64,000 nt of DNA from positions 1,302,001 to 1,366,000 of the forward strand of contig NZ_SAXU01000001.1 in NCBI RefSeq assembly GCF_008016455.1. The letters run 5' to 3'. A program made the position numbers and the translations under genes. Positions within the stretch are counted from its first letter, which is position 1; each line of letters starts with the position of its first letter. Below are positions 9,351 through 24,373 of this stretch, in pieces. The DNA is from Brachyspira aalborgi (GTDB taxonomy: Bacteria > Spirochaetota > Brachyspiria > Brachyspirales > Brachyspiraceae). The notes under the pieces are model-generated. The model was not told the origin of the DNA, did not search any database, and worked only from the letters and a program-made list of their open reading frames with translations.

Positions 9351-10538
9351 ATGTCTGATTTAAATGAATTAACACTTCAGAAAACTAAAAAGGATTACTT
9401 TTTAATTAAACTTTTTATTGGTATTGCATTAGGCATAATTATAGGCATATATTCTAATGAAGGAATAATAAATGTAATACAGTCTATAAAATATATTCTT
9501 AATCAAGTTATATCTTTTATGGTCCCTTTAATAGTTTTAGGATTTATAGCTCCAGCAATTACCAAAATGGGAGATAAAGCGAGCAAAATGTTGGGAGTTA
9601 TACTTATTATAGCTTATGCTTCTTCCGTATGTGCCGCTTTATTTTCCACGATAGCTGGATATACGATTATACCTAACTTAAATATACCTTCAAATGTAGA
9701 GGGTTTAAGAAAATTACCAGAGATAATATTTAAATTAGATATAAGCCCAGTTTTTTCGGTTATAACGGCATTATTTTTGGCTATATGCGGCGGAGTTGCC
9801 GTAGTAAAAACTAAATCCGAATATTTTAAAAACTTGTTAAACGAGCTTAACGATATAATGCTATTTTTAGTTAGTAAAGTCGTAGTGCCAATACTTCCCG
9901 TTTATATAGGAACAACATTTGCAACTTTATCATACGAAGGCGCTATAATAAAAAGAGTTCCCGTGTTTTTAATAGTTATATTGATAGTTATTATAGGACA
10001 TTTTATTTGGCTTGCTTTATTATATTCTATAGCTGGAATAATATCTAAAAGAAATCCTTTAAGAATATTAAAGCATTACGGACCAGCATATCTTACGGCT
10101 GTAGGCACAATGTCTTCCGCTGCAACTTTGCCCGTAGCTTTACAATGCGCTAATAAATCTGACGCTTTAGATAAAGATATTGTAAATTTTGCAATACCAA
10201 TGGGGGCTACAATTCATTTATGCGGTTCTGTTTTAACGGAAACTTTTTTCGTAATGACTATATCAAAATTATTATACGATTCTATTCCAAGCGTTGGAAC
10301 TATGATATTGTTTTGCATATTATTAGGAATTTTCGCCGTTGGGGCGCCTGGCGTTCCAGGAGGAACCGTTGTCGCTTCTTTAGGAATTATCATATCGATT
10401 TTAGGATTTGATAATGACGGAACGGCTTTAGTTTTAGCAATTTTTGCCTTGCAAGATAGCTTTGGAACGGCTTGCAATATTACGGGAGACGGAGCTATAG
10501 CTTTAATGCTTCAAGGAATATTTAAAAAAGGACAATAA
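9351..10538 (+). CDS. Dicarboxylate/amino acid:cation symporter
   Basis: This 395-aa protein belongs to the DctA/GltP (SDF, DAACS) family of Na+- or H+-coupled carriers. It sits in the inner membrane with about eight transmembrane helices and two re-entrant hairpins. The family's serine-rich hairpin motif appears as SSAATLPVALQCA around residue 262, and a Gly-rich segment GAPGVPGGT lies near 330. The C-terminal helix carries the substrate- and ion-binding region (DSFGTACNITGDG). The start follows GAGAGG. It is the first gene of the 9.3-16.8 kb operon. The specific substrate, which could be Glu, Asp, Ser, Thr or a dicarboxylate, cannot be read from sequence alone. Confidence 0.88.
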   Translation: MSDLNELTLQKTKKDYFLIKLFIGIALGIIIGIYSNEGIINVIQSIKYILNQVISFMVPLIVLGFIAPAITKMGDKASKMLGVILIIAYASSVCAALFSTIAGYTIIPNLNIPSNVEGLRKLPEIIFKLDISPVFSVITALFLAICGGVAVVKTKSEYFKNLLNELNDIMLFLVSKVVVPILPVYIGTTFATLSYEGAIIKRVPVFLIVILIVIIGHFIWLALLYSIAGIISKRNPLRILKHYGPAYLTAVGTMSSAATLPVALQCANKSDALDKDIVNFAIPMGATIHLCGSVLTETFFVMTISKLLYDSIPSVGTMILFCILLGIFAVGAPGVPGGTVVASLGIIISILGFDNDGTALVLAIFALQDSFGTACNITGDGAIALMLQGIFKKGQ

Positions 10539-17013: not shown

Positions 17014-17895
17014 ATGAAAAAAAATAGAGAAATTGACAAGTTAAATGATTTATTTGTCCGATACTTGCTCGGCAAAAACGGAAACGAAAATATGCTTGAG
17101 GATATGGTTAACGCCGCTTTAAGTGATTTCAATTTTGAAGAAGTTAAAGATTTGGAAATAATCGACCCTTATAACCTTTCGGAAAATATAGATTTGAAAG
17201 AATCAATTATAGATATAAAAGCGAAAACAAAAGACAATCAAACTGTAATTATTGAAATTCAACTTTGCGGAAATATGGATTTTGTCAAAAGAATTTTTTA
17301 TTATATTTCAAAAAATATTGTAAACGAATTAAAGGAAGGCGAAGATTATAAAAAATTGCCAAGAATTATAAGCATAAATTTACTTAATTTTAATTTAGAT
17401 TTTGGAGACGAAGGAAAACCTCACCGTTGCTTTAAATTAATCGATACGAAAAATCATAATATAGATTTAGATTTTATTCAAATGCATATTATAGAAGCGA
17501 AGAGGTTTATTGAAATAATTGAAAAATCTACTTTAAACGAACTTAAAAAGAATAGATTATTAACTTGGATGAAATTTTTTACAAGCAAAAATTTAAAAGC
17601 TATAGAAAAAGAATTAATGGAGGCAAACCCGATTATGACAAAAGTAATTGAAGAATACAAAAGATTTACTTCTGACGATAAACTTATGAGAGCTTATGAC
17701 GCCCGAGATGCATTTTTACTAGGGCAAAAAATGATGTTATCAAGAGAAAGAGAGGAAGGTAAAGCGGAAGGAATTAAAGAAGGAATTGAAAAACAAAATT
17801 ATACCATTGCAAAATCAATGAAAAAAGACGGAGCGGATATTAACCTAATCTCAAAATACACAGGCTTAAGTATTGAAGAAATTGAAAAATTATAA
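17014..17895 (+). CDS. Rpn-family PD-(D/E)XK nuclease 1
   Basis: This 293-aa protein belongs to the recombination-promoting nuclease/putative transposase (Rpn, PDDEXK) family. Core residues visible are D67 (IIDIK) and E81-x-Q83 (VIIEIQ), the usual Rpn catalytic arrangement. An amphipathic central region and a C-terminal tail (EGIKEGIEKQ then TGLSIEEIEKL) are typical of the family. Such proteins cut DNA and promote RecA-independent recombination; they are not true transposases, and no terminal repeats flank the gene. It is a single gene with an apparently leaderless promoter. A paralogue lies 3.8 kb away. Confidence 0.85.
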   Translation: MKKNREIDKLNDLFVRYLLGKNGNENMLEDMVNAALSDFNFEEVKDLEIIDPYNLSENIDLKESIIDIKAKTKDNQTVIIEIQLCGNMDFVKRIFYYISKNIVNELKEGEDYKKLPRIISINLLNFNLDFGDEGKPHRCFKLIDTKNHNIDLDFIQMHIIEAKRFIEIIEKSTLNELKKNRLLTWMKFFTSKNLKAIEKELMEANPIMTKVIEEYKRFTSDDKLMRAYDARDAFLLGQKMMLSREREEGKAEGIKEGIEKQNYTIAKSMKKDGADINLISKYTGLSIEEIEKL

Positions 17896-19159: not shown

Positions 19160-20347
19160 TTAAAGCGCAGGTAAATACCAAGTAATACCTGTAGTAGCGT
19201 TGAAACCTAAACCAAGTTTTGTAAATGAAACTTGATGAGTAGTTGTTGTGCCTGCAGTATCCGTAGTAGCATAAGTGCCTGAACCGCCCAAATTTCCAAG
19301 TTGGGCTTCAAAATACCATTCAAGATTTTTCAAAGGCGTAATGTAGATTTCCGCATAAACTCCATAGCCTAAACTATAAACTTCTTTAGCGTTTTTATCG
19401 GTGCTTCCAGGTTGCTCAACTTTCAAACCTAATGTAGGTTCTAAATAAAGCGAAACTATATCGCTATTAGCAGTTAATCCCAAACCAGCTACTAAATTTA
19501 AATCCCAAGCGCCCTTTGCCAAAACTGAACTAAGAACAGGAAACCCATCAGCATTCATAATTTTAACCGCTTCTACTCTCGTGGTTCTGTGGTATTTTCC
19601 TAAAGCGCCATTATAAGCCAATCTAACATAAGGTTTTAAAGCAACTTCTTCAACCATAGAGCCAAAGTAAAGTCTAAAGTCAAAGCCGAAACTTTCGCCA
19701 ATTTTTGCGCTAACATTTCCCTCTTTGAAATTTCCGCCGCCATATCTCAAATATAATCTAATTTCAGGAAGCATATCCAAACCCGTATAATATCTAAATT
19801 GAGAATCAACGCTCACTGCATTTATACTTTTTTTAGTGCCAGTCGCATCTTTATCGTTCATAACATAAACTTGAATCGGAATAGCCATTCTGAAAGCGTT
19901 ATCTAATGCATTCAAAACTAATACAGGCGTATGCGCCACAGGGTTATAAGGTTTTAAGTAATCAGCATTGCCATTCTGTTTATAATCTTTTTTTCCAATG
20001 GTTACATTATAACCAACGCCAACGCTGATTAAAGAAGAAGTATAACCAAGTCCCATTGAGATTGAAGGCTTAAAGTCATAATTAAAACCTCTGCCTTGAG
20101 CTGGATATTCTGAGTTTTCGCTTAATAAACTTCCATAGACTCCGCCAAAATCTGCATTATTGTCGAAACCGAAAGTTCCTTTAATAGTGTCGTTTCCGAG
20201 CGTAAATCCAAGTTGGTCTAATCTTGCTCTGAACTGATTGCCATGCGTGAGGAAGAATATCCAATCCGTATCAACCCCATACATACCGAAAACTGAAGCG
20301 CTTGCCATAGACAATAAAGCTATAGCGGTTAAAAAAATCTTTCTCAT
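19160..20347 (-). CDS. vsp: Variable surface protein (Vsp family), second copy
   Basis: This 395-aa paralogue of the protein at 665-1798 is on the opposite strand. The signal peptide (residues 1-21, ending SVFG) is almost the same, and the mature start GMYGVDTDWIFFLTHGN differs at few positions. The shared core includes GLGYTSSLISVGVGYN, the block AFRMAIPIQV and the terminal TGITWYLPAL. Insertions distinguish it, notably around residues 68-85 and a Thr-rich segment near the C-terminus. ATG follows GGAGAG. It is expected to be an outer-membrane or surface protein made from its own promoter with a roughly 300-nt leader. Confidence 0.92.
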   Translation of the reverse strand: MRKIFLTAIALLSMASASVFGMYGVDTDWIFFLTHGNQFRARLDQLGFTLGNDTIKGTFGFDNNADFGGVYGSLLSENSEYPAQGRGFNYDFKPSISMGLGYTSSLISVGVGYNVTIGKKDYKQNGNADYLKPYNPVAHTPVLVLNALDNAFRMAIPIQVYVMNDKDATGTKKSINAVSVDSQFRYYTGLDMLPEIRLYLRYGGGNFKEGNVSAKIGESFGFDFRLYFGSMVEEVALKPYVRLAYNGALGKYHRTTRVEAVKIMNADGFPVLSSVLAKGAWDLNLVAGLGLTANSDIVSLYLEPTLGLKVEQPGSTDKNAKEVYSLGYGVYAEIYITPLKNLEWYFEAQLGNLGGSGTYATTDTAGTTTTHQVSFTKLGLGFNATTGITWYLPAL

Positions 20348-20681: not shown

Positions 20682-20775
20682 CACTTAAAACAAATTTTTT
20701 TTAAAAAAATTTAATTTTTTTCAAGTGAAAATTCATATAAAAATCTATATTTAATCAAAAAAATCGTGCAACTTT

Positions 20776-20803
20776 TTGACAAATTGAGATATTTTGTTAT
20801 AAT
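20776..20803 (+). promoter_or_regulatory. Promoter of Rpn gene 2 (leaderless)
   Basis: TTGACA (20776-20781) and TATAAT (20798-20803) are 16 bp apart, then exactly 7 nt precede the ATG at 20811. The segment from TGTTATAATATATCTTATGA is identical to that of Rpn gene 1. Confidence 0.75.
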
Positions 20804-20810
20804 ATATCTT

Positions 20811-21668
20811 ATGAACGAATTTGAATATTTAGAAAAAAGCAAAAACGAAATTATTACCATTGATAGTTTAAATAAAAAAAATGATTGTTTTATCAGATAT
20901 TTATTTTCTGACGAAGGAAATGAAAATATTGTTTTAGATTTTATTAACGGAGTAATGATTGATTTAAATTTTCAAACTTTTAATAATGTTGTAATTCTTA
21001 ATCCATTTAATCTTACAAAATATTTAGACGGCAAAGAATCTATTGTTGATGTGAAATGTATAACTGAAGATAATCAAACCGTTATAATAGAAATTCAATT
21101 ACAAGGAAATCAATATTTTATTCGCAGAAGTCTTTATTATTGGGCAAATAGCTATAGTTCACTTTTAAACAAATCGGAAAATTATACAAAACTTTCGCCT
21201 GTGATTAGCATTAATGTTTTGGACTTTATTTTATTTAACGATATTAAAGATTTTCATTCTTGCTATTTATTGAAAGAAATTAAACATAATAAAATATTAA
21301 CCGACCATTGCATGTTGCATTATATTGAGCTTCCGAAATTTAATTTAAATAACGACAAAGAAAAATTATCAAGTTGGATAAAATTTTTCAAGGGGGAGAA
21401 TATGTCAAACTTAATAAAAGAGAATAATATTTTTGAAGAAGTAGAAAAGAGATGCCAAAGTTTTATCGATAGCGACCCATTGATAAATGCGTATAGAAAA
21501 AAAGAATGGAATGAATATTTTTACAAGGATATGATGAATGTAGAGAGAGAAGAAGGAATAAAAAGCGAAAAATATTTAATCGCCAAAAATTTAAAACAAA
21601 TGAACATTGATAAAGCCTTGATAAGCAAAGCAACAGGATTGAGTATTGAAGAGATAGAAAAACTTTAA
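20811..21668 (+). CDS. Rpn-family PD-(D/E)XK nuclease 2
   Basis: This 285-aa protein is counted from ATG 20811. An in-frame GTG at 20766 lies upstream of the promoter and cannot be the start. The PD-(D/E)XK core shows D80-x-K82 (SIVDVK) and E94-x-Q96 (VIIEIQ). The C-terminal tail ends in TGLSIEEIEKL, identical to the paralogue at 17014, but the rest of the protein has diverged strongly. The predicted role is a DNA nuclease that promotes recombination. It stands alone with an apparently leaderless promoter. Confidence 0.85.
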   Translation: MNEFEYLEKSKNEIITIDSLNKKNDCFIRYLFSDEGNENIVLDFINGVMIDLNFQTFNNVVILNPFNLTKYLDGKESIVDVKCITEDNQTVIIEIQLQGNQYFIRRSLYYWANSYSSLLNKSENYTKLSPVISINVLDFILFNDIKDFHSCYLLKEIKHNKILTDHCMLHYIELPKFNLNNDKEKLSSWIKFFKGENMSNLIKENNIFEEVEKRCQSFIDSDPLINAYRKKEWNEYFYKDMMNVEREEGIKSEKYLIAKNLKQMNIDKALISKATGLSIEEIEKL

Positions 21669-21997
21669 TATTTTATTTAAAAATTTTATTAAGCATTTTT
21701 AATTGCTAAAATTTATATTTAATTAAAAAAATTCCGTTTATCAATATTACAATTTAATCAAAAATTCTAAAAATCAAGTTTATCAATATATACAATTAAT
21801 TTAATTCAAAAAACTAACTTTAATAAAAAATTCGCTATTTTCCTTTAATAATAAAATCGTGTTTAGAAAAAAAAATTATAAAAAATTCCCGTAATTTTAT
21901 TTATAGAAGAAATTATTAAAATGAATTTTATTAATTTTATTTAAATTGTTTACTTTATAAAAAGTTTATCATTGCGATACTATTTAGCCGAAGCAAT
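21669..21997. repeat. AT-rich spacer with dispersed element, copy 3
   Basis: This 329-bp convergent spacer is low-complexity AT-rich sequence. The only structured part is ATTGCGATACTATTTAGCC followed by GAAGCAAT at 21971-21999, an element found again at 22988. No gene or clear terminator is visible. Confidence 0.55.
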
Positions 21998-22876
21998 TTA
22001 AATTTTTGAATTGCAATTTTTTAATTCTTCAATCCAATTATAAGAAAATCCTATATGTTCCAAATCTATATCGCTTTTATGTTCGTCTACAAGCGACATT
22101 AATTTTTTTAATGTTTCATTATTCCATTTATCTTTGAAAGGATAAAGTTTCTTAAGAGACAAAATAGCTCCAAATAATTTTCTTTTTGATTTCTCTTCTA
22201 AATTATCGATTCCAGAAGGCGCCGCCGAAAAAGTTCTAAAATATAATCTACCGTAATGAGCGCAAATGTTTCTTAAATCTGTGCAACATCGAAGCCAACT
22301 TCCTACAAATTTTGGGTTTGTTTTATAAATATCGTTAGATAAATTTTCTCTATCTTGCCAAGTCATATTTGCAAAAAATTTAGAAAGCATTCCAAATGTA
22401 AACATTTCCGATGCCGCCCAAATTGGAAACTCTCCTCCGTATTTGTATATATGATGTTTTACAAAAAGAATATTTTTATTTTTATCTATTTCTCTTTTAA
22501 AATTTTCAATAAAATTTTCATGAAGCTCCGCTTTCACAGAAAAATTAGCTTTATCCATATATCCCAAAGCTCCGTATTTATGAGCATGAAAATAAGCGAT
22601 TTTTGAACGAAGAAAAATTTCCGTTTCTTCCAATGCGTTAAACAATATTCCATGAAGTTTTCTGTCGAATTCGTAAATAGAAAAAACGCGCTCAAACGAT
22701 AAACCTTCTTCATAATTTCCATTATCTAATTTAAATGGCAAAAAATACGCGCTCAAGCGATAATAATTAACCGATTCGAGTATAGAAATGCATTTTTTAT
22801 CGTCATTTATAATGCAACCTCTTTTCTTTAATTTTTCAAGTTGTTCTTTGTATTTAAGCGGAGGTTTCGGATACAT
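21998..22876 (-). CDS. Abi_2/AbiF-type HEPN protein
   Basis: This 292-aa protein is taken from ATG 22876, preceded by GGGGAA. The frame extends 31 codons further up, but that part runs through a hairpin and U-run and is not expected to be translated. It resembles the AbiD/AbiF (Abi_2) family of abortive-infection proteins: an N-terminal LKYKEQLEKLKKRGCII helix, YYRLSAYFLPF near residue 55, and the canonical HEPN ribonuclease motif R-N-x3-H at R202-H207 (RNICAH). Such proteins cut RNA and arrest growth on phage infection. It is a single-gene unit with its own promoter and a structured 5' RNA. Family call is confident; toxin activity is inferred. Confidence 0.85.
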   Translation of the reverse strand: MYPKPPLKYKEQLEKLKKRGCIINDDKKCISILESVNYYRLSAYFLPFKLDNGNYEEGLSFERVFSIYEFDRKLHGILFNALEETEIFLRSKIAYFHAHKYGALGYMDKANFSVKAELHENFIENFKREIDKNKNILFVKHHIYKYGGEFPIWAASEMFTFGMLSKFFANMTWQDRENLSNDIYKTNPKFVGSWLRCCTDLRNICAHYGRLYFRTFSAAPSGIDNLEEKSKRKLFGAILSLKKLYPFKDKWNNETLKKLMSLVDEHKSDIDLEHIGFSYNWIEELKNCNSKI

Positions 22877-22889
22877 AAATTCCCCATAT

Positions 22890-22935
22890 AAAAAAAATGT
22901 CCCCCATGTCCGCAAAAGCGCTGGGGGTCCTGTTG
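22890..22935 (-). ncRNA. Short hairpin RNA upstream of the AbiF-like gene
   Basis: The predicted transcript begins near 22934. The segment ACCCCCAGCGC (about 22928-22918) folds with GCG (22913-22911) and TGGGGG (22906-22901), and an 8-nt T run (22897-22890) follows, as in an intrinsic terminator. It is exceptionally GC-rich for this genome. The GGGGAA ribosome binding site just downstream (22885-22880) could pair with the same CCCCC arm as an alternative. Non-coding RNAs upstream of AbiF/Abi_2 genes have been described as antitoxin-like partners; that this is one is inference. Confidence 0.6.
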
Positions 22936-22940
22936 CTTTA

Positions 22941-22969
22941 AATATACGACAAATTTTAATTTTTGTCAA
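22941..22969 (-). promoter_or_regulatory. Promoter of the hairpin RNA/AbiF-like unit
   Basis: On the minus strand TTGACA (22964-22969) and TATATT (22941-22946) are 17 bp apart. Transcription would start at about 22934, directly upstream of the GC-rich hairpin. Confidence 0.7.
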
Positions 22970-22987
22970 TTACTTTTTTAAAAATAT

Positions 22988-23034
22988 TATCATTGCTATG
23001 CTATTTAGCCGAAGCAATCCGCTTTTAATAAAAT
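22988..23034. repeat. Dispersed ATTGC...GCAAT element, copy 4
   Basis: ATTGCTATGCTATTTAGCC then GAAGCAATC is followed by CGCTTTTAATAAAATTCC. The hairpin part matches 21971-21999 and the tail matches 16943-16960. It is intergenic, between the Abi promoter and fabV. Confidence 0.6.
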
Positions 23035-23194: not shown

Positions 23195-24373
23195 ATGATA
23201 GTAAAACCTCAAATATCTAATAATGTATGCAGAACTTCTCACCCATTAGGTTGCAGGCAAGAAGTTGAAAATCAAATTAATTATGTTAAATCTAAACCAA
23301 AGATTAACGCCAATATAAAAAATGCGTTGATACTTGGAGCTTCTGGCGGATACGGACTAGCAAGCAGAATAGTTTTAGCTTACGGTTTAAATGCAAATAC
23401 TATGGGCGTTTCTTTTGAAAGGGCGGCAACCGAAGAAAAAACGGCGACTCCTGGATGGTATAATAATCAAGCCTTCAGCGAGTTTGCAAAAAGAGACGGA
23501 CTAAAAGAAAAAACTATTGTGGGAGATGCTTTTTTAGAATCTTCAAAAGAAAGCATTATAAAGCAAGCTAAAGAATTCTTTGACGGAAAAATCGACATTC
23601 TAATTTATAGTTTGGCTACGGGAATAAGAAAGGACGAAAAAGAAAATATAACTTATCGTTCCACTTTAAAACCTGTAGGACAAAAGTATAAAGGAATCGG
23701 AGTCGATTTCATGAAAGAAGAGCTTATAAATGTGGAAATAGAACCCGCTACCGAAGAAGATATAAAAGCTACAGTAAAAGTTATGGGAGGCGAAGATTGG
23801 AGTTTATGGATTGAAGATTTAATTAAAGCCGATATGCTTTCAGAAAACGCTTTAACTTTAGCCTATTCTTATATCGGTCCTGAAATAACTAAAGCCATAT
23901 ACAGAGACGGAACAATCGGAAAAGCAAAAGACGATTTGGAAGAAACTGCAATTAAACTTGATAAAATGATGCAAGATAAACTCAAAGGACATGCTTATGT
24001 TAGCGTGGCAAAAGCCGTTGTCACGAGAGCGTCCGCCGTTATTCCCGCCATGCCTTTATATATAAGCATTCTATTCAAAATAATGAAAGATAAAGGAATT
24101 CATGAAGGTTGTATAGAGCAAATGTATAGACAGTTTAACGAAAAATTATTTTCAGGAAAAGGCGCGATATTGGACGAAAAACATAGATTAAGATTAGACG
24201 ATTGGGAATTAAGAGACGATGTTCAAAAAGAAGTTTTGGAATCTTGGAATAAAGTAAAAGATAACGACACTTTAAAAGCGAACGCCGACTTAAATCAATT
24301 TAGAGACGAATATTTGCATTTGCATGGTTTCGGTTTCAACGGAATCAATTATGACGCCGATGTGCAAATATAA
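23195..24373 (+). CDS. fabV: trans-2-enoyl-CoA/ACP reductase FabV
   Basis: This 392-aa enzyme reduces trans-2-enoyl-ACP or -CoA with NADH, the last step of a fatty-acid elongation or butyryl-CoA cycle, in the cytoplasm. The nucleotide-binding motif is GASGGYGLASR (residues 48-58). The FabV-type catalytic pair Y-x8-K is Y236 and K245. The N-terminus IVKPQISNNVCRTSHPLGC is typical of the family, and the length is close to the usual 390-400 aa. AAAAGGAG precedes the ATG. It is a single-gene unit with promoter and terminator. Confidence 0.95.
   Translation: MIVKPQISNNVCRTSHPLGCRQEVENQINYVKSKPKINANIKNALILGASGGYGLASRIVLAYGLNANTMGVSFERAATEEKTATPGWYNNQAFSEFAKRDGLKEKTIVGDAFLESSKESIIKQAKEFFDGKIDILIYSLATGIRKDEKENITYRSTLKPVGQKYKGIGVDFMKEELINVEIEPATEEDIKATVKVMGGEDWSLWIEDLIKADMLSENALTLAYSYIGPEITKAIYRDGTIGKAKDDLEETAIKLDKMMQDKLKGHAYVSVAKAVVTRASAVIPAMPLYISILFKIMKDKGIHEGCIEQMYRQFNEKLFSGKGAILDEKHRLRLDDWELRDDVQKEVLESWNKVKDNDTLKANADLNQFRDEYLHLHGFGFNGINYDADVQI

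Follow-up and report, generated by a model that had tools for sequence, protein, structure and literature searches.

A window of 64 kb of Brachyspira aalborgi DNA (the whole stretch that was analysed) contains an intact gene of the Abi_2 family, abiF, preceded by a promoter and a short structured RNA element. The promoter, hairpin, ribosome binding site (RBS) and gene all lie on the minus strand, and are arranged as follows:

22964 to 22969, minus strand: -35 box of the promoter, TTGACA, with TTGACAAAAA kept in Brachyspira homologues
22941 to 22946, minus strand: -10 box of the promoter, TATATT, after a 17-nt spacer
22890 to 22934, minus strand: predicted abiF-type antitoxin RNA (AbiFr-like) of about 45 nt, AACAG...hairpin...ACA-U8, placed by covariance model, with putative transcript ends
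22901 to 22927, minus strand: hairpin, from its fold and family covariation
22890 to 22897, minus strand: U-run of eight T, the probable termination point or 3' end, with T-runs at the equivalent place in homologues
22881 to 22885, minus strand: RBS, GGGGA, whose G-run is not kept in other Brachyspira
21998 to 22876, minus strand: abiF (Abi_2/AbiD-F), a HEPN toxin gene of 292 aa, intact, assigned by Pfam, PADLOC, phmmer and predicted fold
22256 to 22273, minus strand: HEPN catalytic motif R202-N-I-C-A-H207, from homologue alignments

The promoter, TTGACA-17-TATATT at 22969-22941, agrees with the consensus at 11 of 12 positions, and AACAGGA begins no more than 7 nt after its -10 box, leading into a hairpin whose outer stem, CCCCCA/UGGGGG, pairs 22927-22922 with 22906-22901. 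Within the outer stem there is a bulged G on the 5' side, an inner stem (CGC/GCG) that closes a UUUU loop, and an internal-loop strand, GACA, on the 3' side. The trinucleotide ACA lies between the stem and the U-run, and the GGGGA of the RBS is followed by the abiF start codon, ATG, at 22876. As read from the sequence, one promoter stands upstream of both the RNA and abiF, with the hairpin and U-run, an atypical terminator, between them. An initial annotation of this DNA had described the promoter, the CCCCCA/TGGGGG hairpin with its eight T, the RBS and ATG of an Abi_2 protein and a complete R-N-x3-H motif, and all of these are present as described. It had also ranked the hairpin far above every other short segment outside rRNA in GC content, which overstates the case: with 0.67 over 36 nt it belongs to the GC-rich extreme outside rRNA, but a segment at 10334 reaches 0.72 and several others equal it. 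Strong GC stems followed by U6 occur at only two sites in the 64 kb, counting either strand, and the hairpin is one of them.

By sequence and predicted fold, the protein belongs to the AbiF family. It matches Pfam Abi_2 at 4e-48 (164.4 bits, against a curated cut-off of 25.6) and the PADLOC AbiD model at 3.4e-100. R202, N203 and H207 never vary in the two alignments made, of 22 and of 32 homologues, and the R-phi-x3-H RNase motif is intact; the initial annotation had made conservation of R202 and H207 a check on its proposal. Among solved structures, phmmer found one relative, 8vz6, the PbAbiF dimer bound to a non-coding RNA (E 1e-22). An AlphaFold2 model built on the 32-sequence alignment (pLDDT 94.5) also ranks 8vz6 first by Foldseek and VIA-align (E 5e-13, Z 25.0, root-mean-square deviation 2.5 A over 280 residues), and on the strength of this predicted model we assign the AbiF fold to the Brachyspira protein. 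The next matches are Cas13a and Cas13d chains with Z about 7, a value that by itself is no evidence for a helical protein; these chains are, however, the ones to be expected from a published link (PMC12165695). AbiF is a toxin of the phage-defence type, related to the ancestors of the RNA-cutting CRISPR enzyme Cas13, and together with its RNA it has been proposed as the point from which Cas13 arose.

The block of promoter, hairpin, U-run and gene recurs with AbiF homologues, not only in Brachyspira but also in other spirochaetes, Bacillota and phages. In Brachyspira homologues found by tblastn (61-64% identical), the promoter, the AACAG (in a few cases AATAG), the hairpin and the T-run lie directly upstream of the gene, while the flank farther upstream is unlike that in the window; the block is kept at different loci. 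An IUPAC pattern for the hairpin has a single match in every one of the nine Brachyspira genomes that carry a close AbiF, and none in the 17 that do not (Fisher p 3e-7, ancestry being ignored). More widely, we compared 81 distinct upstream regions, taken from homologues in spirochaetes, plasmids, phages and viral contigs. A GC stem with a T-run is present in 65 of them, whereas dinucleotide shuffles give 4.15 and the control segments 3 of 77, and the usual layout is promoter, AACAG, single hairpin, T-run, RBS and gene. The presence of the hairpin beside abiF is not due to chance, and its conservation next to homologues, observed in Brachyspira and beyond, had been set by the initial annotation as a check on its proposal. 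At two other spirochaete loci (L015, L016) the 3' arm of the hairpin, GGGGGG, is 7-8 nt from the ATG, and may double as an RBS that is masked by the hairpin.

The RNA is also supported by a covariance model and by strong covariation in its family. The model (R1) was built from 11 homologues, none of them from Brachyspira, and in an unfiltered scan of the window it ranks 22893-22934 first (20.2 bits, E 0.012), the next match scoring 10.4 bits. Each of the seven outer pairs, and two of the three inner ones, is altered on both sides in some of the 44 distinct matches; the covariation score is 0.461, compared with 0.161 after shuffling and no more than 0.092 with slid partners. The alignment behind these figures was fitted to the R1 model, while the seed alignment, which was made without structure, lies above its controls on most covariation measures. 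When the closer GUGUCCC subtype was aligned, the 3' arms did not come into register. In the wide sense this is an abiF-type RNA, having a two-stem hairpin, an AACAG 5' end, an asymmetric internal loop, a U-run, an adjoining abiF gene and covariation.

These features have close analogues among systems already described. The Rfam abiF family, RF03085, is likewise a short hairpin just before Abi_2 genes, with an outer stem of 6-7 bp, an inner stem of 3 bp and an internal loop whose 3' strand is the longer; its consensus strand is CUCAAAU and its 11-nt loop contains CUCU, whereas the window RNA has GACA and UUUU. In Clostridioides difficile, RCd22 and abiF share one promoter, and most transcripts stop before the gene, abiF being expressed past a terminator; RCd22 represses abiF in cis, and neutralises AbiF in trans by binding, for which its stems are required, while R202 and H207 are required for toxicity (PMC12373285). 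The window has the same succession of promoter, abiF motif RNA and abiF, with R202 and H207 at the same positions in a protein that is 40% identical; L038 in our set is the phage phiC2 homologue. RCd22 differs in having two motifs and a separate terminator in about 100-130 nt, where the window has one motif, with a U-run of its own, in about 45 nt, and in its position within a prophage lysis module, the window gene lying between a PDDEXK_2 gene and fabV. One homologous locus, L095, is RCd22-like, with two tandem hairpins of the abiF-type family (1353-1402 and 1415-1462) before one abiF gene. In the PbAbiF complex, each monomer is reported to bind one AbiFr RNA, whose bulge nucleotides inhibit the RNase (PMC12737573). 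PbAbiF (8vz6; Zilberzwige-Tal et al., Cell 2025) has the fold of the predicted model from end to end (Z 25) and the same HEPN motif, but is 24% identical to the window protein; this comparison covers the protein. The lactococcal abortive infection proteins AbiD, AbiD1 and AbiF share the Abi_2 family and the PADLOC AbiD model; they are plasmid-borne, whereas the window abiF is chromosomal, with a putative anti-phage action. There is also a broader similarity with ToxIN-like type III systems, in which an RNA antitoxin lies upstream of a toxic RNase, and direct inhibition would be expected here too; in those systems the RNA is a repeat array, and in the window it is a single unit. The fold of ToxN differs from that of a HEPN RNase.

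Given the anatomy, conservation, covariation, predicted fold and intact active-site motif established above, our essential contention is that the locus encodes an AbiF toxin and an abiF-type RNA antitoxin of about 45 nt, forming a type III-like pair, to which we attach a probability of roughly 0.87. The kind is already known from RF03085, RCd22 and PbAbiF, and the window pair is a compact new example from Brachyspira; the initial annotation had placed this HEPN gene and its upstream structured RNA with the AbiF-linked antitoxin RNAs of the literature, where the RNA belongs. Because of this homology we expect the locus to act like RCd22 and AbiFr, with a single hairpin. A housekeeping-type promoter would produce an RNA of about 45 nt, hardly more than one abiF hairpin; most transcripts would stop at the U-run, so that free RNA would exceed abiF mRNA, and a minority would read through to give the toxin, as the precedent of RCd22 suggests. 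The HEPN RNase would dimerise, as its homologue does, with the active site of the predicted fold around R202 and H207, and a hairpin would bind each monomer, its 3' internal-loop strand probably blocking the RNase site in the manner of PbAbiF. The short RNA would be depleted by phage infection or if the locus were lost, and the RNase so freed would arrest growth. We infer the binding and neutralisation of AbiF from RCd22 and PbAbiFr, together with the transcript, its termination, the toxicity and the response to phage.

Several observations weigh against this interpretation. Support for the pair comes from sequence and predicted fold, with expression, binding and toxicity carried over by homology. 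A terminator scan with standard settings listed none here, the ACA spacer making the terminator atypical, and with the U-run 3 nt from the stem the strength of termination is uncertain. Searched genome-wide with default filters, R1 did not report the window RNA and found five other Brachyspira copies; it takes a scan with the filters off, or the Brachyspira pattern, to reveal the RNA. Its apical loop is shortened to UUUU and does without the CUCU of most relatives, and RF03085 gives no match to it in the window or the genome, even at E 10. Since the Rfam model misses the window RNA, its tie to that family runs through intermediates such as L043: on 18 homologous loci RF03085 reaches the gathering score in three (L017, L038, L043) and scores below it in three more (L042, L018, L020). 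Weak matches to the Rfam families CRISPR-DR43, snoZ101 and tmRNA fell under the cut-off and are not meaningful.

The strongest alternative is that the hairpin is a constitutive terminator which keeps abiF low in cis, the RNA having no antitoxin action. A hairpin and U-run do stand between promoter and gene in most homologues, and deletion of RCd22 raised abiF mRNA 17-fold in C. difficile (PMC12373285). However, conservation of the AACAG 5' end, the internal-loop strands and the inner stem in distant homologues exceeds what a terminator needs, the ACA spacer makes for a poor terminator, RCd22 and AbiFr neutralise the protein directly (PMC12373285, PMC12737573), and the loop subtype follows the protein clade, as described below; we therefore consider simple attenuation improbable. 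Less probable still is the switch proposed by the initial annotation, in which the CCCCC arm would alternate between UGGGGG and the GGGGA of the RBS to control translation. Both G-runs are present in the window sequence alone: the ten other Brachyspira homologues that were compared all lack a G-run at the RBS (GGTTA, GGTCA or GCTTA), and the leader fold with the RBS paired is about 8 kcal/mol worse (-11.3 vs -19.1), with a pairing probability of 7e-6, so that we reject the switch on fold energies and lack of conservation. We regard it as equally implausible that the RNA directs AbiF to phage RNA as a Cas13-like guide; Cas13 chains are the next fold matches, but the RNA forms one compact hairpin in which nothing resembles a variable spacer, conservation extends to its single-stranded parts, and PbAbiFr and RCd22 are reported as inhibitors (PMC12737573, PMC12373285). 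That the hairpin arose by chance, or is a terminator with no tie to abiF, might be argued from single-sequence folding, which is more stable than in shuffles by only z -2.05 (minimum free energy -14.2 vs -9.55); this reading is refuted by co-occurrence with abiF and by covariation, as well as by the blind R1 match and the 65 of 81 upstream regions.

By their 3' internal-loop strand the RNAs can be sorted into subtypes, CUCAAAU, GGACC, [N]CCC and GGUAGCUCAC, and these follow the protein clade, with 8 changes compared with 28.4 for shuffled labels, a contrast that near-copies inflate. The window protein sits in the Brachyspira clade within the [N]CCC clade, and the window RNA has the AACAGGAC...GACAUUUUUU flanks in common with that clade; the strand is [N]CCCA in the nearest relatives of the Brachyspira group, GACCA in most Brachyspira relatives and GACA in the window, where the RNA, with a shortened apical stem and GACA replacing GACCA, is the shortest seen within Brachyspira. 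A broader proposal, which we offer tentatively and at somewhat less than even odds, is that AbiF RNAs comprise several loop subtypes, co-inherited with the toxin and mostly missed by Rfam, in which the internal-loop strand sets cognate specificity, and that the window RNA is among the smallest RNA antitoxins, a single hairpin of about 45 nt acting as leader, terminator and inhibitor. The spirochaete pairs, of which the experimental AbiF paper makes no mention in its text and which escape the Rfam model, add to the natural antitoxin RNAs known so far and cut the RNA to a very small core. With so little RNA, it becomes feasible to work out which of its nucleotides inhibit the HEPN site and how the specificity of a pair is set. 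The same genome has a second, distant Abi_2 gene (L002, C1:1899193-1899837, minus strand) with another upstream hairpin (UCCGCAGGGCUUA..AGCUCACUCUGCGGA) that resembles that of other Brachyspira (L027-L029), and this is possibly an orthogonal pair.

The module itself, 972 bp from stop codon to -35 box, is bounded on each side by 48-bp direct repeats:

21950 to 21997, strand not assigned: 48-bp direct repeat adjoining the stop codon, overlapping a dispersed genomic repeat
22970 to 23018, strand not assigned: 48-bp direct repeat adjoining the -35 box, with 88% identity to its partner

The repeats overlap a short dispersed element for which the genome has about 48 matches, and may mark how the module was gained. 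For an empty-site comparison at fabV, orthologous loci share little upstream sequence, and the contig of the closest genome ends inside fabV. Near the module are two PDDEXK_2 (transposase-like nuclease) genes (17014-17895 and 20766-21668), and the window also has a Serpulina/Brachyspira variable surface protein gene (19160-20347; Pfam Serpulina_VSP, 3e-94). The fabV-type enoyl reductase gene occupies 23195-24373, and a second fabV copy, 76% identical, is found at C1:1166205 in the same genome.
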